A DNA stretch of 64,000 nucleotides, from positions 186,001 to 250,000 of the forward strand of contig NZ_KB889708.1 in NCBI RefSeq assembly GCF_000372745.1, given 5' to 3'. Each line of letters starts with the position of its first letter. The stretch's first letter is position 1. Below are positions 1,782 through 19,597 of this stretch, piece by piece. The stretch comes from Embleya scabrispora DSM 41855. Lineage in GTDB: Bacteria; Actinomycetota; Actinomycetes; Streptomycetales; Streptomycetaceae. The notes under the pieces are model-generated. The model did not search any database, was not told the origin of the DNA, and was given only the letters and a program-made list of their open reading frames with translations. The position numbers were made by a program, and so were the translations under genes.

Positions 1782-3035
1782 TCACGTCGTTTCGAGGCCG
1801 GCGGCGCGGTCGCGGTCGGCTTCGGCACTGGCGCGTTGCTCGGCGGTGAGGCGGGTGCCCAGGTGTCCGTTCTCGACGAGTGTGGCGAGGGTGTCCATGA
1901 CGACGCGGGCGCCGAGCTGCGAGGTGGTGTCGGCGACGTCGTACGGCGGGGCGATCTCGACGAGGTCCATGCCGATCAGTCCTTCCTGCGCCACCGTTCG
2001 GACCGCCTTGAGCGCTTCGCGCGGCGACATGCCGCCGGGTTCGGGCGTGCCGGTGCCGGGGGCACAGCCGGGGTCGACGACGTCGATGTCGAAGGAGAGG
2101 TAGACCGCGTCCACGTCCTTCCACGCGATCTCCAGGGCGATCTCCATGACACGGTCGACGCCGAGTTCCTCGACGTCGAACATGGTGATGACCGTGGTGT
2201 CGCGTTCCTCGGCGACCTGTACGCCGGAGTGGTTGCCGATCCAGCCGCCGATGCCTATCTGGACCAGGTTCGACGCGGGCACGTTGGGCAGGTCGGTGGC
2301 GTGCGACCAGTGGGTGGTGTGCATCCGCTCGTCCATGGTTGTGACGGCGGTGTCGATGTGCCGATCGAAGTGGATGATCCCGAGCCGGCCGTCGATGTGC
2401 CTGGCGATGGCCTTCGCGTCGGGGTAGCCGATGCTGTGGTCACCACCGATGATCACCGGGAACGCGCCCGCGTCGAGGATGTGGGACACCCCGAGGTCGA
2501 CTTGGTCGAAGGTCTTCTCGATGTTGGCCGGGATGACGAAGATGTCTCCGGCGTCGCCGATCGTGATCTCCTCCAACAGGTCCATGCCGAGGTCGGGGCT
2601 GTACGAGTCGTACAGCGCCGAGATGCGGCGGACGGCCTGCGGCCCGAATCGGGCACCGGAGCGGTAGGTGGTGCCCATGTCGAACGGTGCGCCCACCACG
2701 GCCACGTCGTAGCCGCCGATCTCGCGGATGTTCTCGACGTACGGGGACTTCAAGAACGTCGGGATGCCCGCGAACATCGGGTCCAGCCCCCGCGAGAACA
2801 GCGAGATGTTCCGGTCCTTGACGGACCGCGCGGCCTCCAGCCCCAGGTCCAGGGACCGCTCGGCCAGCTCACGCCGCTTGACCTCGGGCACGTCCTTTAG
2901 TCGCCGTCTCGCGCGCATCCCCGACAGGCCCGCGCGCTCCGTCGACGCCCCGATACTCCCGGTGGCGGATTTCGGCGGGTTCGGGCGCATCGGATTGCGG
3001 TGATGACGCTCGTTGTACGCGGGCTGACGGGCCAT
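1782..3035 (-). CDS. Agmatinase-family ureohydrolase (possible guanidine hydrolase type)
   Basis: 417 residues from the ATG preceded by GGGAAGGACG; the open frame runs further upstream but that part is remnant sequence. Family motifs are present: GGDHS, HFDRHID (H222, D224, H226, D228), and SFDIDVVDP for the binuclear metal site. Ureohydrolases split agmatine, guanidinobutyrate, guanidine or related compounds to urea plus amine or ammonia. The usual DAHxD motif is DRHID here, and NLVQIGIGGW follows. From memory this combination is typical of the guanidine-hydrolase (GdmH/sll1077-like) group rather than classical SpeB, so substrate is open. The N-terminal extension of about 60 residues is longer than in SpeB. 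It stands alone in the operon. Confidence 0.85.
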   Translation of the reverse strand: MARQPAYNERHHRNPMRPNPPKSATGSIGASTERAGLSGMRARRRLKDVPEVKRRELAERSLDLGLEAARSVKDRNISLFSRGLDPMFAGIPTFLKSPYVENIREIGGYDVAVVGAPFDMGTTYRSGARFGPQAVRRISALYDSYSPDLGMDLLEEITIGDAGDIFVIPANIEKTFDQVDLGVSHILDAGAFPVIIGGDHSIGYPDAKAIARHIDGRLGIIHFDRHIDTAVTTMDERMHTTHWSHATDLPNVPASNLVQIGIGGWIGNHSGVQVAEERDTTVITMFDVEELGVDRVMEIALEIAWKDVDAVYLSFDIDVVDPGCAPGTGTPEPGGMSPREALKAVRTVAQEGLIGMDLVEIAPPYDVADTTSQLGARVVMDTLATLVENGHLGTRLTAEQRASAEADRDRAAGLETT

Positions 3036-6435: not shown

Positions 6436-7644
6436 ATGCGCACCGATTCCAATGCACGAACCGTGGTCGTCTCCGGTGTGGAATTCGGCTGGGGCAGTAC
6501 GGGAAAACTCGGCGCGATCCTGTCGGCCGCACGTCGACGCTCGACCGAGCCGCTGCGCTTCGTCGGCCTGGCCTCCGGACTCGGCCGCCCCGTGTTGTCC
6601 GAACACGCCATCGACCACTGGTACGACCTGCCGAACGCCGAAGAGGACGTACCCGCCGCCATCAACGCCATCACCCGATCGGAACGAGCGGCGGCCGCGG
6701 TGGTCGTCCTGGACGGTGCGCTCGCCAAGACGCTGGAGGCGTCCGGCGTACCCACCGTGTTCGTGGACAGCCTGCCCTTCCTGTGGGCCGAGGGCGACCG
6801 GGCCGCACTGCCCCTGGACGCCACGGCCTACTGCGCGCAGAAGTGCGTCGAACTTCCCCCCGAGTGCCGGGACGTGCTGGCGTCCGTCCGGGCCCTGCAC
6901 TGGGTGGAGGCCGTCGTCGGCACCCCGTCGGTCACCGAGCCGAGCGCACCCGCCGCCGGCCCGTACCGCACGGCCGTGGTCAGTCTGGGCGGTCTGCGCG
7001 CGCCTCGGCTCGCCGACTGGACGGCCTACCCGCGCATCGTCGTTCCCGCCGTCCTGGAGGCGCTCGCCGCGTACGGGATCCACGAGGTGCACGTGGCCGG
7101 GAACCTGCCCGCCGATCTCGCCGGGCAGCTGGTGGACGCGTCCATCACGCCCCCGCGGGTGAGCACGGGAGCGCTCGCGCACGGCGAGTTCCTGGACCGG
7201 GTGGCCGGCTGCGATGTCCTGCTGACCTCCCCGGGCCTGACCACCCTGCTCGAGGCCGGTCGACTGCGCGTACCCACCATCTGTCTGCCGCCGCAAAACC
7301 TCAGCCAGATCTTCAACGGAAGATTCCACCGCCGCGCGATCGGCGTCGAGACCCGAATCGCCTGGCCCAAGGGGGTGTTCACCGAGGAGGAGGCGCTGTC
7401 CCTGCGCACCCGCGGCGAGGACCACGCCTTGGAGCTGATCTACGCGGCGATCGCCGCGGTGGCCGCCGACCCGGACTGCCGGAGAACGACCGTCGCACTT
7501 CGCGACGACATCCTGACCGTGCTGCGCGGCACCGCCGAGGGCACCGACTGGGGCGCGCTGACCGCGACCGTCGGTGTCGACGGAGCCGCCCAGGTGGCCG
7601 ATGCCCTGCTCGCGATCCTGCCGGGCGCGCCCCGCCCCGCCTGA
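6436..7644 (+). CDS. blsD: Cytosylglucuronate synthase-like glycosyltransferase
   Basis: 402 residues with a GT-B layout. The N-terminal Rossmann half carries VVVSGVEFGWGSTGKLGAIL, a Gly-rich acceptor/phosphate loop. The C-terminal half has TAVVSLGGLR, the donor-binding stretch VLLTSPGLTTLLEAGRLRVP and PTICLPPQNLSQ. The layout and the neighbourhood (MilB/BlsM-like CMP hydrolase, BlsE-like decarboxylase) match the cytosylglucuronate / hydroxymethylcytosylglucuronate synthases of blasticidin (BlsD) and mildiomycin (MilC). Those couple free cytosine to UDP-glucuronate, the committed step. It is first in the operon, with the AT-rich promoter region upstream. Assignment is by family resemblance plus context. 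Confidence 0.75.
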   Translation: MRTDSNARTVVVSGVEFGWGSTGKLGAILSAARRRSTEPLRFVGLASGLGRPVLSEHAIDHWYDLPNAEEDVPAAINAITRSERAAAAVVVLDGALAKTLEASGVPTVFVDSLPFLWAEGDRAALPLDATAYCAQKCVELPPECRDVLASVRALHWVEAVVGTPSVTEPSAPAAGPYRTAVVSLGGLRAPRLADWTAYPRIVVPAVLEALAAYGIHEVHVAGNLPADLAGQLVDASITPPRVSTGALAHGEFLDRVAGCDVLLTSPGLTTLLEAGRLRVPTICLPPQNLSQIFNGRFHRRAIGVETRIAWPKGVFTEEEALSLRTRGEDHALELIYAAIAAVAADPDCRRTTVALRDDILTVLRGTAEGTDWGALTATVGVDGAAQVADALLAILPGAPRPA

Positions 7645-7714: not shown

Positions 7715-8704
7715 GTGCGTGAGCGTCACCGATATCTCTTCGTCAGGATCCTGGAAGCCTGCAACGCCGACTGCTTCATGTGCGACTTCGCGCTGTCGCG
7801 CGACACGTTCCGCTTCTCCCGGGAGGACTTCGAGGACCTGTTGCCGAAGGCCCGCGACGCCGGCGTGGCCTATGTGCGGTTCACCGGCGGCGAGCCGCTC
7901 ATGCATCCGGACGTGGTGGAGCTGGTGCGCTCCGGCACGGCCGCGGGAATGCGGATGTCCCTCATCACCAACGGCTCGATGTTGCCGAGGATGGCCAAGA
8001 GCCTCGCCGAGGCGGGCCTGGCCCAGGTGATCGTCAGCCTGGACGGCGCGTCCGCCGCGACCCACGACGTGTACCGCCGTTCCCCCGGCATGTTCGACAA
8101 CGGGCTGCGCGGACTGCGTGCCGCCGCCGAACTCGGGGTCCTGCCCAGGGTCAATACCGTGGTCGGGCCGCACAACTACGGCGAAATGCCGCTGCTGCAG
8201 GAGGTGTTGACCCGCGCCGGGGTCCGACAATGGGAACTGTCCGCGCTCAAGCTGGATCGCAGCATCACCTACCCCGATCCCGACGACGTGCGCCGGGTGT
8301 GCGGCCGCGTCTACGACGCCGATCCGAACTCCCTGCTGGTGCCGATGGGCAAGCGCTTCTATGGCGACGACCCGGAGGAACAGGCGTGCTACTTCGCCGA
8401 ATCAATCACCCCACGCGCGTCGCTGCCGCAGTGCCACGTCACCGACGACGTGATCTACATCGACGGCAAGTACGGGCGGATGTACGCGTGCAGTTGCATT
8501 CCGCACCGCGAGGGCGAGGACGGCCCGGGCGGAGCGCCGCTGCGCCAGGCGGGCGTGATCGGCCTGGACACACCGGCCTTCCGGGAGCATGCCGACTTCT
8601 ACCGCGAACGCGGACCCCTGGTTTGCAACGGCTGTTCGACCACGGCCGCCGGCTACAGCGACGACGTCGCCCGGCTGGGATCGGTGAACCCATGGCAGTA
8701 CTGA
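7715..8704 (+). CDS. blsE: Radical SAM enzyme, BlsE-like cytosylglucuronate decarboxylase
   Basis: 329 residues from a GTG preceded by GAAGGGG at 8 nt. The 4Fe-4S motif is C16-N-A-D-C20-F-M-C23 (CxxxCxxC), followed by the GGEP-type SAM motif (VRFTGGEPLMHP) and VIVSLDGASAATHD. The C-terminal part contains further cysteines (YACSCIP, LVCNGCST) that may bind an auxiliary cluster. In blasticidin biosynthesis BlsE decarboxylates the glucuronyl C5 carboxylate of cytosylglucuronate by radical chemistry. The flanking synthase and DegT aminotransferase make that the best assignment. It overlaps the next gene by 13 nt. Confidence 0.78.
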   Translation: MRERHRYLFVRILEACNADCFMCDFALSRDTFRFSREDFEDLLPKARDAGVAYVRFTGGEPLMHPDVVELVRSGTAAGMRMSLITNGSMLPRMAKSLAEAGLAQVIVSLDGASAATHDVYRRSPGMFDNGLRGLRAAAELGVLPRVNTVVGPHNYGEMPLLQEVLTRAGVRQWELSALKLDRSITYPDPDDVRRVCGRVYDADPNSLLVPMGKRFYGDDPEEQACYFAESITPRASLPQCHVTDDVIYIDGKYGRMYACSCIPHREGEDGPGGAPLRQAGVIGLDTPAFREHADFYRERGPLVCNGCSTTAAGYSDDVARLGSVNPWQY

Positions 8705-9744
8705 CTCCCCGGGAGGGACCGGACACCCGACGGCCGGACACGCGACGAACGGCCACCGACGGTTCCGAACTCGGGCCCGCGGAGTCGGCTCGCCGAATCC
8801 TGCTGGTCTCGCGCGACGACCGCTTGGACTCGGTGCTCGCCCGGCGACGCGTCGCCGCCCATCTCGGCGGCCTGCGAGCGCTCCGGGACTCGACTGGGCA
8901 ACCACTCCCGGACGTGGCACTGGTCTGCGACGACGAGGCCGCCACGGAGCGGCTGCTGGAATCGGGCGTACCGGTCGTACACCTGTCCTCGGGTCACCAT
9001 GGCACGACCGGCACGACCGGGACGACCGGCACGACGGGTACGTCCGGGGCCGGGACGACTGCGGCGACCGGGGCCGCCGGCCGGGCGCTGCACCGCGTGC
9101 ACCGGCCCGGTTGGCTGCCCGACCCCGCACTCTCGTCGACGGGCCCTCGCCGCAACGGAGTTCGCCCCACCGGGCTGCTCGCCCCCGCCCGCTCCGCCCG
9201 CAAGCGCGAACGCGCGGGAACCCTGCTGTTGTTGTCCGCGTGGGACGTGCCCGACGCCGAGGCGAACGCGTTCATCGCCGACACGCTGCCCGCGCTGGTT
9301 CGGGAGGCGCTGCGGCGCACCGGCCGGTGCGACGTGGTCGGCGACACGCGGCTGACGCCGATCCGCGCCGCACTGGCGGGACTTGCCGGCCGCCGGGAGG
9401 TACGGGTGAGCCGCGCGGTCGATGTGGACGTGGACGCGCTGCACGCCGGGGCCGAGGTGTTCCTGGCCGCGCCGACCCTGGGCGCGCTGGCGCTGGCCCA
9501 AGCGCGGCGCGCACCCCTGGTGTTCCTGCCCGCGCTGGGCGACACACAGCGCGATCTGGCCGCGTGCGTACGGCATCTGGTCCCGGTTCCGCCCGCCGAC
9601 GATCCCGAGGACGACGCGTTGTGGGCACCGCCCGAGCGGAACGCCACCGCGCTGTGGAGCGTGCTCGACCCGGATCTGGACGACCTGCGCGGCGCGCAGC
9701 GCGTCGCCCGGACTCTCCGCCAACTCTCGCTCGCCCCACTGTGA
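8692..9744 (+). CDS. CGA synthase-related protein, degenerate GT-B relative
   Basis: 350 residues, ATG inside the end of the radical SAM gene. It keeps pieces of the same fold as the first cluster gene (RRILLVSRDDRLDSVLA, VFLAAPTLGALALAQARRAP, LVFLPALGDTQRDLAA). It lacks the Gly-rich GWGSTGKLG loop, and the donor motif is reduced. A Gly-Thr-Thr repeat tract of five units interrupts residues 104-118. RefSeq-type annotation for similar proteins is CGA synthase-related, and no activity is known to me. It may be a non-catalytic partner of the synthase, or act on a later sugar intermediate. The position between decarboxylase and aminomutase suggests a pathway role. Confidence 0.55.
   Translation: MAVLTPREGPDTRRPDTRRTATDGSELGPAESARRILLVSRDDRLDSVLARRRVAAHLGGLRALRDSTGQPLPDVALVCDDEAATERLLESGVPVVHLSSGHHGTTGTTGTTGTTGTSGAGTTAATGAAGRALHRVHRPGWLPDPALSSTGPRRNGVRPTGLLAPARSARKRERAGTLLLLSAWDVPDAEANAFIADTLPALVREALRRTGRCDVVGDTRLTPIRAALAGLAGRREVRVSRAVDVDVDALHAGAEVFLAAPTLGALALAQARRAPLVFLPALGDTQRDLAACVRHLVPVPPADDPEDDALWAPPERNATALWSVLDPDLDDLRGAQRVARTLRQLSLAPL
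9001..9045 (+). repeat. Five 9-nt tandem repeats in frame (Gly-Thr-Thr)
   Basis: Units are GGCACGACC (twice), GGGACGACC, GGCACGACG and GGTACGTCC. They encode a flexible Gly/Thr linker within the CGA synthase-related protein. Being a multiple of three, length changes would not shift the frame. Confidence 0.9.
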
Positions 9745-9954: not shown

Positions 9955-11121
9955 ATGTCCGCCACGCCCCTCGAAGCCACCACCTCGGACGAACCCACGA
10001 TCGCACGACCCCGCGTCCCCGACACGGACTGGGACGACTGGCGTTGGCACATGCGGCGACGCATCACCAACGTCGACAAGGCCCGACAATGGATCAACCT
10101 CAGCCCCGACGAGGAGAAGGCGATCGCCGGGGTGGCGGGCAAGTACCGGTGGAGCGTCACGCCGTACTACGCCTCGCTGATGGATCCGGACGACCCCCTC
10201 TGCCCGGTCCGGCAGCAAGCCGTCCCCGCCGCAGGGGAGTTGGTGGAGTTCTCCGGTGCGGAGGTCGACCCGGTCGGCGACACGTACTACCGCAAGACCA
10301 ACCGCGTCGTGCACAAGTACCCCGACCGGGTCATCATGCTGATCACCGAGGCGTGCCCGGTCTACTGCCGGCACTGCACCCGCAAGTTCCACACGACCGA
10401 CGTCAACGGCACCTACTTCCGGGACGACGAAGGCGAGTCGTTCGACGAGGATCTGCGCTACATCGCCGACCACCCGGAGATCCGGGACGTGTTGCTGACC
10501 GGCGGGGATCCGCTCTCCTACCAGGACGGCAAGCTCGAGGAGATCATCGCGGGGCTGCGGGCGATCCCGAGCGTGGAGATCATCCGGATCGGCAGCCGTT
10601 TCCCGGTGTTGTTGCCGCAACGCATCACCGACGACCTGTGCGCGATGCTCGCGCGCCATCACCCGGTGTGGGTGAACACCCATTTCAACCACCCGAAGGA
10701 GATCACCCCGGAGGCGACCGCCGCGGTGGATCGCATGTTGCGCCACGGGATCCCGGTGGGCAACCAGACCGTGCTGCTGCGGGGCATCAACGACGACGTC
10801 GCCACCATGCGCACCCTGATGACGGACCTCCTGCGCATCCGGGTGCGGCCGTACTACCTCTACCACTGCGACAACGTCACCGGCGTCTCGCACTTCATGA
10901 CCTCCGTGGCCAAGGGCTGGGAGATCATGGAGGGCCTGCAGGGTCACATCACCGGCTTCGGCGTGCCGCAGTACGTGCTGACCACCAGGATCGGCAAGAT
11001 CCCGATCGCACAGCCGTACTTCACGAACACCCCGGAGGGCCTGCGCCTGCGCAACTTCCGCGGCGAGGAGATGCTCCTCGACACCACGGCATGCCCGATC
11101 ACGGAGGCCGACGCGCGATGA
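9955..11121 (+). CDS. blsG: KamA-family amino acid 2,3-aminomutase (arginine type inferred)
   Basis: 388 residues; ATG chosen for GGAG at 8 nt. The radical SAM motif is C134-P-V-Y-C138-R-H-C141, embedded in the lysine-2,3-aminomutase context ACPVYCRHCTRKF. GGDPLS follows, and the PLP lysine is K348 in IGKIPIAQPYF. Lysine aminomutase uses two Asp residues to hold the substrate side-chain amine. The first (in YHCDNVTGVSHF) is kept. The second, normally in VVDAPGGGGK, is Thr here (VLTTRIGK), so lysine is an unlikely substrate. BlsG of blasticidin makes beta-arginine, which fits the neighbours. Its stop overlaps the next start (ATGA). Confidence 0.82.
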   Translation: MSATPLEATTSDEPTIARPRVPDTDWDDWRWHMRRRITNVDKARQWINLSPDEEKAIAGVAGKYRWSVTPYYASLMDPDDPLCPVRQQAVPAAGELVEFSGAEVDPVGDTYYRKTNRVVHKYPDRVIMLITEACPVYCRHCTRKFHTTDVNGTYFRDDEGESFDEDLRYIADHPEIRDVLLTGGDPLSYQDGKLEEIIAGLRAIPSVEIIRIGSRFPVLLPQRITDDLCAMLARHHPVWVNTHFNHPKEITPEATAAVDRMLRHGIPVGNQTVLLRGINDDVATMRTLMTDLLRIRVRPYYLYHCDNVTGVSHFMTSVAKGWEIMEGLQGHITGFGVPQYVLTTRIGKIPIAQPYFTNTPEGLRLRNFRGEEMLLDTTACPITEADAR

Positions 11122-12296
11122 CCCTGGACAAGCGACTGGGACAACGTTTCCTGCCCTACGGCGCGAACTACCTCGACTGGTCCGACATGGCGGAGCTGCG
11201 CGAGGCGATCGAACATCGGGTGCTGTTCCGCTACCAGACGGAAACCGAGAGCATGGCCTCGCGGTTGGAACGCGAGACCTGCCGACACCTGGGCGCCGCC
11301 CACTCGTTGGCCGTGCACAACTGCACCGAGGCGCTGCGGCTCGCGCTGATCGCCACCCGCCCGTCCATCGGCGATCGGGTGTACATCCCCGCCGTGACCT
11401 TCGTCGCCGTGGCCGGCGCGGTGTTGTCCTGCGGCCTGATCCCGGTGCCGGTCGACACCGACGACTCGCTGTCGTTGGATCCCACACTGCTGCCGCCGGA
11501 CGCCGAGCGGGTGATCGTGGCCCACATGGAGGGCACGGTGGCGCCGCTTCCCCAGGGCGTGCGGTACGTGATCGAGGACTGCGCGCAGTCGCTCGGCGCC
11601 CGTTTCCCGGACGGACGCGCGGTGGGCACCGCCGGCTACGCGGGGACCTTCAGCTTCCACCACAACAAGGTGCTCACCTCGGGCGAGGGCGGGCTGGTGG
11701 TCACCAACGACGAGCAGGCGTGGGCGACGATGCGCTGCTACCACGACCACGGCTCGGCGCGTGTACCCGGCCGCTACCCCACCTGGAACGAGGACGCCTA
11801 CTACGGCGAGAACTTCGTCACCAGCGAGCAGGTCGCCGCCGTCCAGTGCCAGCAGTTCCGCCATCTCGACGAACTCCTCGACGGGCTGGAGCGCATGTAC
11901 GCCATCGCCATGCGCGAACTCCCCGACCGCGCGGACCTGGAGGTGCGGCCGCGCGCGGCGGGCGACGTGAAGGTCAGTCTGCGCTTCCGCTGCCGCGACC
12001 GCGCCCTGCGTGACGCCGCCGTGGCCACGCTGACCGCCGAGGGCATCGCCAACTGGACCCTGAACAAGTACCTGTTGCCCGAGCATCCGGTGCTCACCGG
12101 CCGACGCTCGCTCTACGCCGACGGCTTCCCGTGGAACCACGCCCCCGAGGGCTCGCTCGCGCTCAGTCACGACGGATTCGCGCGCACCCGCGACCGGTTG
12201 GACCGCACCCTGTGCGTGCCGCTGTCGCCGGAGTTGCCCGAGTCCGAACAGGTCGGCGCGGTCAAGGCGATCCGGCGCGTGCTGGAGGCGGTGTGA
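11118..12296 (+). CDS. blsH: DegT/DnrJ/EryC1/StrS aminotransferase
   Basis: 392 residues of fold-type I PLP sugar aminotransferase. The substrate/cofactor loop is HNCTEALRLAL, the Asp-Cys-Ala-Gln motif is IEDCAQSLGARF, and the PLP lysine is K184 in SFHHNKVLTSGEGG. The length is normal for the family. In blasticidin, BlsH installs the sugar amine after decarboxylation by BlsE, giving the amine that is later acylated with beta-arginine. Context supports the same role: it is translationally coupled to the aminomutase upstream and to the ATP-grasp gene downstream. The exact ketosugar substrate is inferred. Confidence 0.82.
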   Translation: MTLDKRLGQRFLPYGANYLDWSDMAELREAIEHRVLFRYQTETESMASRLERETCRHLGAAHSLAVHNCTEALRLALIATRPSIGDRVYIPAVTFVAVAGAVLSCGLIPVPVDTDDSLSLDPTLLPPDAERVIVAHMEGTVAPLPQGVRYVIEDCAQSLGARFPDGRAVGTAGYAGTFSFHHNKVLTSGEGGLVVTNDEQAWATMRCYHDHGSARVPGRYPTWNEDAYYGENFVTSEQVAAVQCQQFRHLDELLDGLERMYAIAMRELPDRADLEVRPRAAGDVKVSLRFRCRDRALRDAAVATLTAEGIANWTLNKYLLPEHPVLTGRRSLYADGFPWNHAPEGSLALSHDGFARTRDRLDRTLCVPLSPELPESEQVGAVKAIRRVLEAV

Positions 12297-13534
12297 ACGC
12301 GCCTCCCACGCTGCTGATGGTGGACGACCGGGCCTCCTCGTTCACCCGCTACGCGGCCCGGGCGCTGTCCGAGAACCTGGTGCTGCTGCGCTTCGCCGAG
12401 CTTCGGGGCGACCTGCGCGAGGACTACCTGCGCGAGACCGCGCACCTGCCGGCGTTCTGGGTCCGCGAAGGCGCGCCCCTGGCAGAGGAGGCGCGACGCT
12501 ACCGGGAGTGGGCGGCCGAACTGCCGGAACCGCCCACCCGGTTCTGCAATCCCTCCGAACCGCGCCAACACGTCGCGCATCGCTTCGCCGCCCTGGTCGG
12601 GCTGCCCCATCTGGACGAACGCCAGGTGGCCTGGGTGCGCGACAAGGTCGCCATGAAGGAGCGGTTCCACGAACTGGGCCTGCGTACGGCCGCGTTCACC
12701 CGGGTGCGGTCGGCCTCGGAGGTGGAGCGGTTCGCCGCGCGGTACGGCCGGCCGCTCGTCCTCAAGCCGGTGGACTCGTTCGCCTGCGTGGACACCTACC
12801 TGCTCCCGGGACCGGCCGCCGCGGCCGAGATCGACTACGACACCCGGGACTTCATGGTCGAGGAGCATCTCGGCGGCACCGAGTGGGAGGTGTGCGCGCT
12901 CATCCACGACGGCGAGGTGCTGACCGCCTGGCCCAGTGCGATGCCCTGTCGTCCGCTGGACATCGTGGACGGCGCGATGAACGCCAACATCAGCGTCGGC
13001 ACCGACGAGGGTCCTCCGGTGGACCTGCGCGAGTTGCTCCAGCGCATCGTCACCGGCATGGACATCGACCACGGGTACGCGCACATGGAGTTCTTCGTGG
13101 TCGACGGGCAGGTGTTCGCGGGCGAGATCGGGATCCGGTTGGCGGGTTGCGAGATCCCCGCCAACCACGGACACGCCTACGGGTTCGATGTGTTCGCGGC
13201 CACGCTGGACGTCTACCTGGGTCGCCGCCCGCGCCTGGACTACCGCGAACGCCGCTGTGCGGGGGACCTGTTGCTGCCCCTGCCCGGAACGGGAACCGTG
13301 CGCCGGATCACCTCGGCGGACGAACTCCTGTGCCTGCCGGGCGTTGTCGATGCCGTTCTGCGCACCGGCGTCGGCGACACGGTGACGGCCCGCCGGGCCT
13401 CGCACAACGCCTCGGGCCACGTCCATGTCGTCGGCGACTCGATCGCACAGGTCGAACAGCGCATGCGGGCCGTCCTGGACGCCTTCAGGATCGAGGTGGC
13501 CCCGGCCCGCGAGCCCGATCCGGTCGCCCGATGA
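12293..13534 (+). CDS. ATP-grasp ligase, probable amide-forming enzyme
   Basis: 413 residues, GTG start overlapping the previous stop (GTGA). ATP-grasp features: WVRDKVAMKERFHELGLRT, the ATP lysine in PLVLKPVDSFACVD, FMVEEHLGGTEWEVCA, and the metal/phosphate triad region HMEFFVVDGQVFAGEIGIRL. The family joins carboxylates to amines through an acyl phosphate. With a beta-amino acid mutase and a sugar aminotransferase beside it, the simplest role is to ligate the beta-arginine-like acid to the sugar amine. This is inferred; it could also attach another amino acid. It overlaps the exporter start. Confidence 0.7.
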   Translation: MNAPPTLLMVDDRASSFTRYAARALSENLVLLRFAELRGDLREDYLRETAHLPAFWVREGAPLAEEARRYREWAAELPEPPTRFCNPSEPRQHVAHRFAALVGLPHLDERQVAWVRDKVAMKERFHELGLRTAAFTRVRSASEVERFAARYGRPLVLKPVDSFACVDTYLLPGPAAAAEIDYDTRDFMVEEHLGGTEWEVCALIHDGEVLTAWPSAMPCRPLDIVDGAMNANISVGTDEGPPVDLRELLQRIVTGMDIDHGYAHMEFFVVDGQVFAGEIGIRLAGCEIPANHGHAYGFDVFAATLDVYLGRRPRLDYRERRCAGDLLLPLPGTGTVRRITSADELLCLPGVVDAVLRTGVGDTVTARRASHNASGHVHVVGDSIAQVEQRMRAVLDAFRIEVAPAREPDPVAR

Positions 13535-14847
13535 CCGCCGGTCCGCGCCGAGACGGCGAACCGCCATCCGCGAAGAGCCCACCGGAACCCGCGGCGCCCC
13601 CCGGGGCCGGCGGCCTGCTCGGGCGCTTCCGCGACCTGCTCACCCGCCCGCAGGTGGCCGCGGCGGCCGGGTGGAGCGTCGTGGCCAGGCTGCCCGTCTA
13701 CCTGATGTCCCTGGCCATGGTGCTGACCATCCGTGAACAGGGCGGCAGTTACGCACAGGCCGGCCTGATCGCCGCGCTGTACACGCTCGGCATGGCGCTG
13801 GGCAGCCCACTGATCGCCCGCCGCCTCGACCGCAGCGGACGCCGCGGCGTCCTGGTGGCCACCGGCCTGGCCTACCCGGTGGCGCTCGCGACGCTGGTGT
13901 GGGCCACCCGGCCGGGCTCCTGGGCGCAGCCCGCCCTGGCCGTCGCCGCGGGTGTCGCGCTCCCGCCGACGAACGCGTGCATGCGCTCGTTGTGGGCGCG
14001 CATGCCGCTCGCGGACGAGGAACGCGAGACCGCCTACCTGTGGGAGGCGCTGCTCACCGAGGTCCTGGTCATCGGCGCGCCGCTGATGCTCGCGGCCCTC
14101 ATGTGGTCCGGATCCGCCGGGGCGGCGCTGACCACGGTCGCCGTCATCGGCGGCGCCGGAGCCCTCGGCCTGGCCTGTGTCCGGTTGCCGGCGAGCACCG
14201 AAGCCGCGACCGCGACCGGCCCGGAGCCGGCCGGCGCCGAGGTCCTGGGCATACCGCGCCACCCGCTGCGCGATCCCGCGATGCTGGTGCTCCTGGGCGT
14301 GATGACCGCGTGTGCCGTCCCCATCGGACTGATGACGCTCGCCATCCCGGCCTTCGTGTCCGCCCACGGATCACCGGACGGCACGGGTGTGGTCTACGCG
14401 TGCTGGGGCGTCGGCAGCGCGGTGGGCGCCCTGTGGCTGGGGCGCGCCCCGTCGCGGGTCCCGATGCGGGTGCGCTTCCCGCGCCTGGTGCTGGCCTTCG
14501 CGGCCGGCACGGGACTGGCCGTGCTGAGCACCTCCCCGCTGACCCTGGCAATCGCCCTGGCCGTCGGCAGCATGCCGATCGCCCTGGTGTCGGCAGCCGA
14601 GATGACCCTGGTCGGCGCGCTCGCGGACAAGCGTCTGCTGGCGCGGGCGTTCACCTGGGCGTCGCTGGCCACCGTCCTGGGGGACGCGGTGGGTCAGCAG
14701 GTCGGCGGCCTGCTGATCGAACCGATCGGCCCACGCGGCGTGTTCACCCTCGCGTTCGGCGTGGCCCTGGCGGGAGCGGGACTGGCCTTCGCGGGCCGCC
14801 GGTTGCCGGCGCCCGACGCCGCCGTTCCCGCGCGGTGCGCGACCTGA
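13531..14847 (+). CDS. MFS efflux transporter, probable product exporter
   Basis: 438 residues with about 12 hydrophobic segments after a 40-residue Pro-rich cytoplasmic N-terminus. The loop after TM2 has SPLIARRLDRSGRRGVLV, the MFS motif A region. The start overlaps the ATP-grasp stop (ATGA), so it is cotranslated with biosynthesis genes and is the likely exporter and part of self-resistance. No deaminase or acetyltransferase resistance gene of the blasticidin type is seen in the cluster. Confidence 0.8.
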   Translation: MTAGPRRDGEPPSAKSPPEPAAPPGAGGLLGRFRDLLTRPQVAAAAGWSVVARLPVYLMSLAMVLTIREQGGSYAQAGLIAALYTLGMALGSPLIARRLDRSGRRGVLVATGLAYPVALATLVWATRPGSWAQPALAVAAGVALPPTNACMRSLWARMPLADEERETAYLWEALLTEVLVIGAPLMLAALMWSGSAGAALTTVAVIGGAGALGLACVRLPASTEAATATGPEPAGAEVLGIPRHPLRDPAMLVLLGVMTACAVPIGLMTLAIPAFVSAHGSPDGTGVVYACWGVGSAVGALWLGRAPSRVPMRVRFPRLVLAFAAGTGLAVLSTSPLTLAIALAVGSMPIALVSAAEMTLVGALADKRLLARAFTWASLATVLGDAVGQQVGGLLIEPIGPRGVFTLAFGVALAGAGLAFAGRRLPAPDAAVPARCAT

Positions 14848-14937: not shown

Positions 14938-16821
14938 ATGAACGCCCCCGTCGTCACCGAAACACACGACCGCTCGGATCCAACCCCGGCCCCTGCGCTG
15001 TTCGGTGTGGTCGAGGTCGGGCAACTGCCTCAGGCCGTCGCCGATTTCCTGGCCGCACCGGGGCACACCCCGGTCCCCGTGCCGGGTGTGGGACGCCCGG
15101 ATCTGACGCACGCCGTCGACCTGGCCGCCCGCCTGTACGACGGTGTCGAACTCCCGCGCCCGCTGGACGTCGGAGTCCTGCTCGGGCCGCAGGACCTGCC
15201 CGACGGCGTACCGGCGCTCGCCCGCCCGCTGGCCCGTACCTGGGTGGCCGAGGAGGAACTGGCGGACGCCGCCGAATTCCGGCGTCGACACCCCGGGACG
15301 CTGCTGATGGTCGGCTGCTACGACCGGCTCAACCTGGATCCGGTCCGGGCGTTGCTGCTGACCACCTACCGTGACCGCGAGCCCGGGCTGACGCTGCTGA
15401 GCGGACGCGACGCGGCCTCGGTGGCCTGGAACGTGGCCAAGCAGTACGCGACCGTGGCGCCCGGCGTCGACGCGATCGGGCTGTTCACCGACACCGACCG
15501 GCCGCCGCACTCCGACGGCGTCCGGGTCTTCGACGACCGCGACTTCGAACGCGTGGACATCCAGGCCGAGATCCTCGGCACGCGCTGGCGCCGGGTGGCG
15601 TTCCAGGGCCACGGCAAGGACGACAGCGTCAACCTCGGCGAGTTCACCATCTGCGGCCTGAACCCCGCCGCCCCCGCCCGCGCGGGACTGCTCGGCCCGC
15701 GCTGCGCGTACGGACTGCCCTGCTACAAGCCCGAGGACAAGCTGGTCCCGCTCAACCGGGTGGAAGCCGTCGAGGTGGTGCTCAGCGCCTGCAACAGCGG
15801 TCCGCTCGCCGATCTCGCGCTGTACGACCCCAGGTACCAGCTGCTGCTCAACGCCCTGGACGGCCCGGCCCGCACCGTCGTCTCCGCCGTCTCGGTACAC
15901 GATTCCGACCGGCCGGAGAACGTCGCGTGGATGCGCGCGGCCCTGTCCGGCGCGGACTCCGTGGACACCCTCAACGCCAGCCTCGCCGGATCGCACCCCT
16001 ACCCCGCGTTCATGCGCTTCGGTCTCCCGCAAGGCGACGCGCCCGCCGCACCGCCCCCCGCAGAGCACCGCCCCGACCCGCTCGTACTGACCGTGGGACG
16101 ACGCCTGACCACCCTGCTCACCTCGGAACTGCTGCCGCACAACCACGCGTTGCGCCCCAGGCTGGTCAAGCTCGCGCGCAAGGTGGACCTGTGGGTGTCC
16201 CGGCCGACCCATCTCGCCGACCAGTCGCCCGACGAGATCCGTTCCTCGCTCACGGCGGACCTGCAGTCGCTCGACCACGTGATCACCGAACAGGTCGCGG
16301 CGAACCCCGAGAACGAGATCATGAGTTACCCCGCGCACTTCGGGGACCGCAGTTCGCTGGACCCGCAGGTGCACGAGGTGACCTGCCATTGCGGCCGTCC
16401 CGCCCAGGAGTTCACCCGGCGGGGGCTGCTCCCGCACGTGTCGGACACGATCTGCGCGGTCTGCATGCGCTGCGGCGACGTCACCTTCCGGGTCCCCGAA
16501 GCCCCTTCCCTGCTGGCCTACGCCCACGACGAGGTCGAGCAGGGCGGCGTGCTGGAGGTACGCGCCACCGTCGAGGTCGCCCGTACCGGACCCGTGCGCC
16601 TGGGGCTGTTCGTGCCCACCTACCTGCGCGAGGACACCACGGTGGAACCGGGCGTGGTCAGGATCCGGGCCGGCCACGACCGGCCTCGGGACGTGGCCTT
16701 CCGGGTGCGCTTCGCCGCCGACACCGCGCCGCAGGCGTACTACTTCACCGTCTTCGCCGTCCAGGACCTCGCCGTCTCCACGGCCCGCCGCCACTTCGGC
16801 GTCGTGCCGCGCCGTACCTGA
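14938..16821 (+). CDS. Caspase-fold (CHAT/C14-like) protein with Cys-rich ribbon, role unknown
   Basis: 627 residues. A caspase-like half runs to about residue 360. Its dyad is H225 in FQGHGKDD and C285 in VVLSACNSGP, in the normal order and on the normal strand ends, followed by RTVVSAVSVHDSD. The C-terminal half holds a Cys cluster (C483, C485, then C506, C509, C512; TCHCGR and CAVCMRCGD), probably a zinc ribbon. A beta-rich domain then runs to the end, reading QGGVLEVRATVEVARTGPVR. No signal peptide. It lies 90 nt after the exporter and 42 nt before the methyltransferase, on the same strand. Cluster membership is likely, but no step of the known pathways calls for a cysteine peptidase. Confidence 0.65.
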   Translation: MNAPVVTETHDRSDPTPAPALFGVVEVGQLPQAVADFLAAPGHTPVPVPGVGRPDLTHAVDLAARLYDGVELPRPLDVGVLLGPQDLPDGVPALARPLARTWVAEEELADAAEFRRRHPGTLLMVGCYDRLNLDPVRALLLTTYRDREPGLTLLSGRDAASVAWNVAKQYATVAPGVDAIGLFTDTDRPPHSDGVRVFDDRDFERVDIQAEILGTRWRRVAFQGHGKDDSVNLGEFTICGLNPAAPARAGLLGPRCAYGLPCYKPEDKLVPLNRVEAVEVVLSACNSGPLADLALYDPRYQLLLNALDGPARTVVSAVSVHDSDRPENVAWMRAALSGADSVDTLNASLAGSHPYPAFMRFGLPQGDAPAAPPPAEHRPDPLVLTVGRRLTTLLTSELLPHNHALRPRLVKLARKVDLWVSRPTHLADQSPDEIRSSLTADLQSLDHVITEQVAANPENEIMSYPAHFGDRSSLDPQVHEVTCHCGRPAQEFTRRGLLPHVSDTICAVCMRCGDVTFRVPEAPSLLAYAHDEVEQGGVLEVRATVEVARTGPVRLGLFVPTYLREDTTVEPGVVRIRAGHDRPRDVAFRVRFAADTAPQAYYFTVFAVQDLAVSTARRHFGVVPRRT

Positions 16822-16863
16822 GCCGAATCCGACCCCACCCCGCCACTACAAAGGACGAATGTG

Positions 16864-17481
16864 ATGGAAACCCGGTCCAAGCCCGAGATCGAACTCGTCG
16901 AGACCGACGGCGAGGTGACGCTGAACATCGGCGGCGAGCAGGCGATGCAGGCCTGGGAACGCGATCTGATGTGGGCGAGCGCCGACATGTTGTGCGAGTA
17001 CGGCCGGGACTTCTACGAAGTCGGCCTGGGCCTGGGGCTGTCCGCACTGCGGATCGCGGGCAACCCGGCCACTCGCAGCCACACCGTGCTCGAACTCTTC
17101 GGCGAGGTCGAGGACCTCTTCCGGAGTCGGCACCCTTCGTTGCCCGACAATCTCGCCATCGAGCGTGGCGACTTCTTCGAGCGGGTCTTCGAACTGCCCT
17201 CGGAGAGCCTCGACGGGATGTTCTTCGACCCGGCCCTGGACATGGAGGTCTGGAAGGACGAGGCCCTGTGGGCCAAGACCATGCCGGAGGTCGTCCGGGC
17301 GCTGCGCCCCGGCGGGGTGTTCATCCCCTTCTTCAGCACCAAGCCGGAACTGCGTTGGCAATACCTGCCGCATTTCCGGAGCATCCGGGTCGAGTCCCAC
17401 CCGTACCGGGCGTACGACACCACCGAGTACACCTACGGCACGAGCGGCCAGGCCTACATCCAGTGTTTCCGCAAGACCTGA
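16864..17481 (+). CDS. blsL: SAM methyltransferase, BlsL / guanidinoacetate methyltransferase-like
   Basis: 205 residues; the ATG at 8 nt from AAAGGA is preferred over GTG two codons earlier. EQAMQAWERDLMWASADMLC followed by the SAM loop YEVGLGLGLSALRIA resembles guanidinoacetate N-methyltransferase (MQxWE, EVGFGM). LDGMFFDPALDME supplies the acceptor-binding Asp region. BlsL N-methylates the guanidino group of the beta-arginine moiety in blasticidin S. The beta-arginine-type aminomutase upstream makes the same chemistry likely here. A methylated guanidine is therefore predicted in the product. Confidence 0.75.
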   Translation: METRSKPEIELVETDGEVTLNIGGEQAMQAWERDLMWASADMLCEYGRDFYEVGLGLGLSALRIAGNPATRSHTVLELFGEVEDLFRSRHPSLPDNLAIERGDFFERVFELPSESLDGMFFDPALDMEVWKDEALWAKTMPEVVRALRPGGVFIPFFSTKPELRWQYLPHFRSIRVESHPYRAYDTTEYTYGTSGQAYIQCFRKT

Positions 17482-17590: not shown

Positions 17591-18109
17591 ATGACCACCG
17601 CCCCCTCTACCGACTACCTGTGCGGCCTCGACGTGGCTTCGCTGTTCCTGGCCGGGCCCTTCATCCAACTCTTGGACCCGGCCACGGGGGAGATGCCCGA
17701 GCAGGCACGAGCGCCCTTCGACATCCTGATCAAGCACTTCGAGGCGCGTGGGCTCGCCGTCCACAACGCGCATCGCCGCGAGGCGTGGGGTGCGGAGCTG
17801 ATGCGACCGGACCAGTGCACCCCGCTGGACCAGGACGAGATCCGCAAGGCCGACGTCTTCGTCGCGCTCCCGGGCTTCCCCGCCTCGCCGGGTACCCACA
17901 TCGAGGTGGGTTGGGCCAGTGCCTTCGACAAACCCATCGTGCTGATGCTGGAGCGGGGACGGGAGTACACGTTCCTGGTCCAGGGGCTGCACACGGTGGC
18001 CACCGTGGAGTACGTGGAGTACACGGACGTCGCGGAAGCCCTGCCCGAACTCGACCTGGCACTGCACCGGGCGGTGTCCCGCCACCGCGAGACGGCCCGG
18101 GCGAGCTGA
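17591..18109 (+). CDS. blsM: CMP N-glycosidase (BlsM/MilB family)
   Basis: 172 residues, ATG after GGAGG. It belongs to the nucleoside 2-deoxyribosyltransferase-like fold and is very close to MilB/BlsM over the active site: SLFLAGPFIQLLDP, VHNAHRREAWGAEL, IRKADVFVALPGFPASPGTH and IEVGWASAF, with the catalytic Glu in HIEVGWAS. These enzymes hydrolyse CMP (BlsM) or hydroxymethyl-CMP (MilB) to free base for the glucuronyl transferase. MilB Arg23 contacts the hydroxymethyl group; the aligned residue here is Ile in GPFIQL. I infer a CMP hydrolase supplying cytosine. It is the last gene before a strong terminator. Confidence 0.88.
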   Translation: MTTAPSTDYLCGLDVASLFLAGPFIQLLDPATGEMPEQARAPFDILIKHFEARGLAVHNAHRREAWGAELMRPDQCTPLDQDEIRKADVFVALPGFPASPGTHIEVGWASAFDKPIVLMLERGREYTFLVQGLHTVATVEYVEYTDVAEALPELDLALHRAVSRHRETARAS

Positions 18110-18193: not shown

Positions 18194-19597
18194 ATGAGAA
18201 TCGCCACGGCCGTGCTCGTTGCCGTCGCCACACTGCTCGGCGGGGTCGGGGCGAACTCGGGCTCCGGCTCTGTCCCGAGCGTCGCGTCGGTGCGCGATGA
18301 GGCGCCGGCCGCGGGCGGGGTGCGGGCGCCTGCGGACCTGGTGAGAACACCCGCGGCGCCCTCGTACACGGTCGACCTCGCCGGTGACGCCACGGGCCGC
18401 GTGTGGACCGGCCACGAGCGGGTGGGCTTCACCAACGCCTCGGCCGATCCGCTCGCCGAGGTGTACCTGCGGTTGTGGGACAACGCGCACGGCACGTGTG
18501 CGGCGCCGCCGATCACGGTCTCCGAGGTCGCCGGCGGCACCCCGGTGGCCCTGTCCGTCGACTGCACGGCCCTGCGGATCGTCCTGTCCAAGCCGCTCGG
18601 CCGCGGCGAGCGCACCTCGATCGCCTTCGATCTACGGATCGAAGTCCCGGACCGCGTCGACCGGTTCGGCCACGACGGCGAGCACGCCATGCTCGGCAAC
18701 GCGTTGCCGCTGCTGGCGATTCGGGACGCTGCGGGCCCGCATCTGGACCCCTATACCGACCACGGCGAGTCCTTCTACTCCCTCGCGGCGGACTTCGACG
18801 TCACCCTCGACCACCCCGCGCGCCTCCGGGTGCCCGCCACCGGCACCTCGGTCGAGTCCCCGGGGGCGCCCGGTCGTACGGTCACCACCGCAACGGCGCG
18901 CAAGGTCCGTGACTTCGCGTGGGCCGCGGGGCCGTTCGCCGCCATCTCCGGCACCTCCGCCACCGGGGTCCGGATCAACGTCCACGCGGACGACGGCATC
19001 GACCCGTCCGACGCCAGGGCCATGCTGGACGTGGCGCTGACGAGCGTCGACGCCCACGCCGGGCGCTTCGGTGTCTACCCGTACGCCGAACTGGACGTCG
19101 TCCTGGACGACGATCTGTGGTTCAGCGGCATGGAGTACCCGGGCTTCGTCCTGGACCGGGTCCGGTCCACGGCACTCGTCCACGAAATCGCGCACCAGTG
19201 GTGGTACGGGATCGTCGGCAACGACGAGTACAACGACCCCTGGCTCGACGAGTCGTTCTCCGAATACGCCACCGACCTCGCCCTCGGCAGGACCGGCGAC
19301 GGCTGCCGAGACGGCTTCTCCTGGGCCGCGCCGACGGAACGGCTCACCGACTCGATGCGGTACTGGGACGCCCACCCGTCCCGCTACGAGGCCGTCGTCT
19401 ACGACTACGGCAAGTGCGCCCTGCACGAACTCCGGCGACTGATCGGCGATGCCCCGATGGAGACGCTGCTGCGTGGCTACGCCGCCGACCACTGGTACGG
19501 GATCTCCACGACGGCCGAGTTCAAGCACGCGGCCCAGGCGGCGGCCGGCACCCACGACCTGACGCCGTTCTGGGCACGGCACCGCATCGACGGCTGA
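18194..19597 (+). CDS. Secreted M1-family zinc aminopeptidase
   Basis: 467 residues with a short N-terminal hydrophobic segment (IATAVLVAVATLLGGVGANS) that looks like a signal peptide. The gluzincin site is H330-E331-I-A-H334 with the third ligand E353 (DPWLDESFSEY). The usual GAMEN exopeptidase loop is changed to SGMEYPG, as in many secreted actinomycete M1 enzymes. The catalytic Tyr is probably in SRYEAVVYDYGK. M1 enzymes trim N-terminal residues from peptides outside the cell. It follows the nucleoside cluster after a terminator, so it is a separate unit. A role in removing an amino acyl group from an exported precursor, as reported for leucyl-blasticidin, is only a suggestion. Confidence 0.85.
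   Translation: MRIATAVLVAVATLLGGVGANSGSGSVPSVASVRDEAPAAGGVRAPADLVRTPAAPSYTVDLAGDATGRVWTGHERVGFTNASADPLAEVYLRLWDNAHGTCAAPPITVSEVAGGTPVALSVDCTALRIVLSKPLGRGERTSIAFDLRIEVPDRVDRFGHDGEHAMLGNALPLLAIRDAAGPHLDPYTDHGESFYSLAADFDVTLDHPARLRVPATGTSVESPGAPGRTVTTATARKVRDFAWAAGPFAAISGTSATGVRINVHADDGIDPSDARAMLDVALTSVDAHAGRFGVYPYAELDVVLDDDLWFSGMEYPGFVLDRVRSTALVHEIAHQWWYGIVGNDEYNDPWLDESFSEYATDLALGRTGDGCRDGFSWAAPTERLTDSMRYWDAHPSRYEAVVYDYGKCALHELRRLIGDAPMETLLRGYAADHWYGISTTAEFKHAAQAAAGTHDLTPFWARHRIDG

Follow-up and report, generated by a model that had tools for sequence, protein, structure and literature searches.

The window, by which we mean the whole 64,000-nucleotide stretch of Embleya scabrispora DNA that was analysed, carries a blasticidin S biosynthetic cluster (Table 1). 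Its genes blsD, blsE and blsG were called by curated equivalog models with scores far above the cut-off, and blsH, blsI, blsJ, blsL and blsM were called by family. The letters D, E, L and M were set by the literature and by the model names, and H, I and J are those that we take the published bls cluster to bear. The genes run blsD-E-F-G-H-I-J, then a gene for a 627-residue protein, then blsL and blsM, and this order is shared with about 20 other clusters. Since the order is alphabetical and just one gene separates blsJ from blsL, this gene occupies the blsK position. A first-pass annotation of the sequence had placed it between an exporter and a methyltransferase on the same strand; these neighbours are the MFS exporter gene blsJ and blsL. 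An arginase-family gene on the reverse strand (window 1782-2891) precedes the cluster by a few kb; it may bear on arginine supply or have no connection with the pathway.

Table 1. Genes of the cluster and features of the 627-residue protein, in window coordinates.
Feature	Position	Strand	Evidence
blsD, cytosylglucuronate synthase	6463..7644	+	TIGR04467, 642 bits
blsE, radical SAM cytosylglucuronate decarboxylase	7715..8704	+	TIGR04466, 640 bits
blsF-like	8914..9744	+	position; 28% to a protein of the NCBI-annotated blsF family
blsG, arginine 2,3-aminomutase	9955..11121	+	TIGR04468, 643 bits
blsH, DegT/DnrJ-family PLP enzyme	11118..12296	+	PF01041
blsI, ATP-grasp amide ligase	12293..13534	+	LAL_C2 and ATP-grasp matches
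blsJ, MFS exporter	13531..14847	+	PF07690
Very probable blsK orthologue, 627-aa Cys-rich protein with predicted caspase fold	14938..16821	+	ORF/gene call, homologue position, models, fold search
Predicted N-terminal clan CD (caspase-hemoglobinase) domain, residues 19-372	14992..16053	+	pTM 0.90 model; gingipain matches
GRDAASVAWNVAKQ motif, residues 156-169	15403..15444	+	homologue alignments
H225 codon, putative dyad His	15610..15612	+	kept in 49/54 homologues
Insertion between the His and Cys strands, with C239, C256, C262	15652..15723	+	each in 54/54 homologues
C285 codon, putative dyad Cys, proposed acyl-thioester nucleophile	15790..15792	+	54/54 homologues; alignment with the CHAT LSAC Cys
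Zinc-ribbon-like CxC...CxxC, residues 472-518 (C483, C485, C509, C512)	16351..16491	+	54/54 homologues
C-terminal Ig/macroglobulin-like beta sandwich, residues 521-626	16498..16815	+	VIA-align to complement C3/C4 MG domains
blsL, guanidine N-methyltransferase	16861..17481	+	weak methyltransferase matches, position; function PMC5572114
blsM, nucleotide hydrolase-like / nucleoside deoxyribosyltransferase-like	17591..18109	+	PF05014
Secreted M1 aminopeptidase-like protein, candidate dedicated deleucylase	18194..19597	+	PF01433, 1.7e-13

The 627-residue ORF delimited by the first-pass annotation is real: it opens with ATG at 14938 and ends with a stop at 16821, and about 28 actinobacterial clusters or genomes have an orthologue that spans its full length at 65-96% identity, the closest public sequence being one from Embleya with 96% identity. 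Searches with the protein against Pfam, NCBIfam and PADLOC gave no match, and phmmer and profile searches of the PDB sequences returned nothing meaningful. AlphaFold, supplied with 27 homologues, gave a mean pLDDT of 82.7 for the whole protein and of 86.2 for the N-terminal domain modelled alone. When Foldseek candidates were re-ranked by VIA-align, this domain was matched best by the gingipain RgpB (4ief_B; Z 14.8 over 245 residues, rmsd 3.3) and next by Kgp (4rbm; Z 14.6 over 250 residues). TPR-CHAT/Csx29 followed at Z 10-11 (about 10.5), separase at 9-10 (about 9.7), DdvA at about 9.2 and SAVED-CHAT at 8.8, and these families together with the gingipains account for all of the best 37 matches, down to a Z of about 8. 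Caspases, legumain, MALT1 and the catalytic subunit of GPI transamidase were found at Z 5.5-6.8, so that the matches are of clan CD or CHAT type with few exceptions lower in the list. Foldseek by itself gave no E below 0.001 for the N-terminal domain, and on the full model it recovered the beta domain only. The latter, at about residues 521-626, is matched by VIA-align to the MG domains of complement C3/C4 with a Z of about 12.

In the model, H225 lies in strand 217-226 and C285 closes strand 277-285, two successive long strands arranged much as in clan CD. The order of the dyad that had been read from the letters, with GHG at residues 224-226 and C285 in an SACNSG stretch beginning at residue 283, is thus upheld. 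In a profile comparison by hhalign, for which 20 CHAT domains were taken from related genomes, P was 0.0015 and C285 fell on the catalytic Cys of the CHAT LSAC motif; unrelated control profiles reached a P of 0.04 or worse. Against three C25 domains the same comparison was not significant (P 0.025, Prob 2), and its alignment fell away from the dyad. Taken from the predicted structure, the catalytic half of the protein appears to be a clan CD (gingipain/CHAT/caspase) domain that has retained the His-Cys dyad, an assignment that holds among the re-ranked Foldseek candidates and leaves room for families outside that list. The caspase-hemoglobinase fold proposed in the first-pass annotation is accordingly favoured by the model, and the Cys-rich ribbon and beta domain which it had placed at the C terminus are found there.

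The likeness to the gingipains (family C25, clan CD) comprises the structural match, the succession of a His strand and a Cys strand, an Ig-like domain that follows the catalytic one, and the GRDAASVAWNVAKQ motif, which by eye resembles the GR(L/I)P..aK..Y of the C25 domains L135-L137. However, the protein is not matched by the Pfam model of Peptidase C25 (PF01364), the C25 domains compared have neither the three-Cys insertion nor the zinc ribbon, and gingipains are peptidases, whereas the protein encoded here is expected to be a transferase in biosynthesis. With CHAT domains (TPR-CHAT/Csx29 and SAVED-CHAT) it shares the fold, at Z of about 8.8-10.8, and the LSAC Cys aligned with C285. In contrast to these, it lacks a TPR or CRISPR partner and has extra Cys sites, and neither the protein nor 20 homologues matched the Pfam CHAT model (PF12770) at E up to 10.

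Conservation was read from 54 distinct homologues, with identities down to about 20-30%. Eight Cys residues are present in all of them, namely, C239, C256, C262 and C285 in the N-terminal domain and C483, C485, C509 and C512 in the ribbon. In the GRD..W..AKQ motif, D158, W164, K168 and Q169 are found in 54/54 homologues, and G156, R157, D158, W164, A167, K168 and Q169 are invariant also when the distant relatives are considered. H225 is kept in 49 and replaced by Asn in five, so a strict dyad is not universal in the family. With C285 in all 54 and H225 in 49, the motif did not arise by chance. The five members with H225N (L058, L060, L078, L079 and L080), which form an NRPS-linked lineage where their context was read, also carry Q223H, N286F and H321C and retain C285. 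As these positions change together, they are likely to share an active site around C285, and the pattern points to an active site that may have been remodelled in this lineage. Two distant relatives of about 21-23% identity, L092:8283-10361 (-) and L093:9480-11615 (+), retain H225 and all eight Cys. The ribbon of L092 reads CPTC...CPSC, the usual zinc ribbon type. No counterpart of the three-Cys insertion is seen in the CHAT or C25 domains that were compared.

A clear link emerges between the presence of this family and that of the pathway. BlsE was detected above the cut-off in 13 of 393 Streptomyces genomes and the BlsK family in 24, and all 13 genomes with BlsE also have a member of the BlsK family (Fisher P 3.6e-18), the copy being only decayed in G737 and interrupted by the end of a contig in G689. 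In 12 of the 13, blsE and the BlsK-family gene are 6-8 kb apart on one contig. The co-occurrence of orthologues with the cluster genes, named in the first-pass annotation as a check, is therefore strong. Of the outcomes which that annotation had named as refuting, neither a predicted structure lacking the fold nor an absence of the gene from related clusters was seen. When 396 genomes from across the phylum were searched, no genome but that of the window had a member; the family is thus rare outside the Streptomycetaceae and a few others.

BlsK has been described as a [3Fe-4S]- and tRNA-dependent aminoacyltransferase, according to the account of Wang et al. (2021, PNAS) given in PMC10691278. 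Leucyl-demethylblasticidin S was shown to be the true substrate of BlsL, and leucylation lowers toxicity (PMC5572114); it is the M1 aminopeptidase PepN, encoded outside the cluster, that cleaves off the leucine (PMC4664946). Judging from its position, the gene order and its Cys content, the 627-residue protein is very probably BlsK, and BlsK would then have a caspase fold. The protein was likened to BlsK of Streptomyces griseochromogenes by place and not by alignment: both are Cys-rich and lie between blsJ and blsL in the same cluster order. S. griseochromogenes is absent from the 29 matches of the homologue search, so that a replacement gene from outside the S. griseochromogenes BlsK family could in principle sit here. 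The exact gene order with one gene per letter, a Cys content that suits an Fe-S protein, and a scan of the cluster with protein-family models, in which no second leucyltransferase candidate was found, make such a replacement very improbable.

The same position bears on the functions that had been suggested earlier. The statement that no characterised step of blasticidin biosynthesis fits the protein was wrong in substance, given that the gene is at the blsK position and that BlsK appears in the cited summary as an aminoacyltransferase. Among the proposed activities, an amide-forming transpeptidase came closest, in that an amide would indeed be formed; the donor would be an aminoacyl-tRNA and not a peptide. 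Release of the product from a protein or peptide carrier and a stress effector tied to resistance gained no support, and cleavage of an aminoacyl group is already the work of PepN. A true caspase-like cysteine peptidase, whether its target were a carrier peptide or leucyl-blasticidin S or whether it served as a stress effector, would agree with the clan CD fold and the dyad, and with the TPR protein that adjoins L092 and L093, as is seen for some CHAT proteins. No gene for a peptide carrier is seen in the cluster, however, deleucylation is accounted for (PMC4664946), the invariant three-Cys insertion is foreign to the CHAT and C25 domains compared, and a transferase function has been published for BlsK, at least as summarised in PMC10691278, so that a peptidase is highly improbable. 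Because of the blsK position, the reading of the gene as an orphan within a nucleoside cluster, be it a peptidase or a stress effector, was rejected.

The gene is thus of a known kind, an orthologue of blsK, and it is the assignment of a caspase fold that appears to be new. In the openly accessible literature, no mention of a caspase-like nature of BlsK was found. Nor was a description of its mechanism, beyond the use of Leu-tRNA by BlsK as an Fe-S protein. If the fold is of caspase type and the dyad is retained, a concrete mechanism offers itself, in which an acyl-Cys intermediate is formed as it is by clan CD ligases, and the fold and the conservation together name three Cys residues as likely ligands of the cluster.

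The BlsK orthologue would act as a leucyl-tRNA-dependent leucyltransferase that produces leucyl-demethylblasticidin S, by which the host would be protected. Leu-tRNA would dock on the protein, C285, aided by H225, would accept the leucyl group as a thioester while the tRNA leaves, and the leucine would then be handed to the amine of demethylblasticidin S. The product would be the substrate of the methyltransferase BlsL, and an M1 aminopeptidase would later take the leucine off. As to the tRNA site, the helical linker and ribbon have a computed net charge close to neutral, so no such site is claimed there. The thioester step is modelled on what clan CD ligases and transamidases do with peptides, and we consider it plausible, if a little short of probable. 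GPI transamidase and legumain are clan CD enzymes that pass an acyl-Cys to an amine. They share the fold family with the protein, at Z of about 5.5-5.8, but their acyl donor is a protein and not an aminoacyl-tRNA, and they have no Fe-S cluster.

Under this mechanism the [3Fe-4S] cluster would be held by the three Cys (C239, C256 and C262) of the insertion that separates the dyad strands, and the four-Cys ribbon at the C terminus would be a zinc site. This distribution of the metals is proposed because the ribbon of L092 is a usual zinc ribbon, and it would leave C285 free as the nucleophile. The reverse distribution, with the Fe-S cluster on the ribbon and the Cys residues of the N-terminal domain binding zinc or being structural, is consistent with the four invariant ribbon Cys; it is rather unlikely in view of the typical CPTC...CPSC in L092 and of the Cys insertion in the caspase domain, which adjoins the dyad, the expected site of a cluster on which activity depends. 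The main rival to the thioester is that BlsK has the caspase fold and C239, C256, C262 and C285 jointly bind the Fe-S cluster, which would place or polarise a substrate while leucine passes directly from Leu-tRNA to the amine. The four Cys of the N-terminal domain are equally invariant and H225 is less so, the published description of BlsK, as far as it is summarised in PMC10691278, stresses the cluster, and a direct attack without an acyl-enzyme is used by aminoacyl-tRNA-dependent Fem-type transferases (PMC12945691). Against this, C285 is at the exact place of the clan CD nucleophile, at a strand end and in a CHAT-like LSAC context, and the other three invariant Cys are enough for a [3Fe-4S] cluster. 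C285 as a fourth ligand is a possibility of some weight, although one that we would not expect to prevail.

Aminoacyl-tRNA serves as the donor for an amide bond in aaRS-like enzymes, GNAT/Fem transferases, CDPS and LanB-like PEARLs, as proposed here for BlsK, but their folds differ. In a January 2026 review of biosynthetic enzymes that depend on aminoacyl-tRNA, the folds listed are aaRS-like, GNAT, CDPS and LanB-like, with neither BlsK nor a caspase-fold class mentioned (PMC12945691), and a search of the non-subscription literature for a link between a CHAT or caspase fold and aminoacyl-tRNA found none. A caspase fold would be an addition to the set given in that review for amide formation from charged tRNA. 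We tentatively suggest, as a possibility near an even balance, that the BlsK family is a new fold class of aminoacyl-tRNA-dependent amide-forming enzymes, characterised by a caspase/gingipain fold, a thioester on the dyad Cys and an adjoining three-Cys [3Fe-4S] site. Besides blasticidin clusters, this class would serve in a distant radical-SAM operon and in clusters of the arginomycin-like, NRPS and sulfate/carrier-protein (azabicycle-like) types, where the aminoacyl groups may differ.

Members of the family were indeed found in loci of several kinds. They are present in arginomycin-like clusters with beta-methylarginine genes (L053, L054, L059), in NRPS clusters that also encode a TauD-type oxygenase, an ATP-grasp ligase and an MFS exporter (L058, L060, L095, L097), and in other NRPS clusters (L057, L094). 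In three further loci (L055, L056, L099) the homologue is accompanied by an amino-acid kinase, a semialdehyde dehydrogenase, a split transketolase, a sulfate adenylyltransferase/APS kinase and BtrH-like genes, and these clusters resemble azabicycle pathways of the ficellomycin/vazabitide type. An ATP-grasp ligase or an MFS exporter adjoins the homologue in many of these other loci. The distant relatives L092 and L093 belong to a conserved operon that encodes radical SAM, PqqD-like, ABC-2, solute-binding and TPR proteins. In several uncharacterised antibiotic clusters the family flags a step that probably forms an amide, and it may therefore serve as a handle for genome mining.

Outside the Actinomycetota, a proteobacterial MAG (L030) has a bls-like cluster in which blsK is present and blsL is not recognisable, which would fit leucylation as protection and not only as a step before methylation. 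At L029:5456-7832 (-), the genes for CGA synthase, BlsE and the exporter seem fragmented and the BlsK homologue is intact, possibly owing to cluster decay or to sequencing errors.

Directly 3' of blsM, the M1 gene encodes a protein with HEIAH at residue 330 and a signal-like N terminus; seven other clusters (Embleya, Kitasatospora and others) have an orthologue of 59-86% identity in this position. The protein is a candidate for a dedicated enzyme that strips leucine from the exported product, a task hitherto assigned to the unlinked PepN. It suggests that in some producers the exported, capped drug is activated by an enzyme of their own. Finally, a 15 kb plasmid of Bombilactobacillus has a 216-aa ORF (L061:6355-7005, +) that is about 30% identical around the dyad region and adjoins small hypothetical ORFs and MFS genes.
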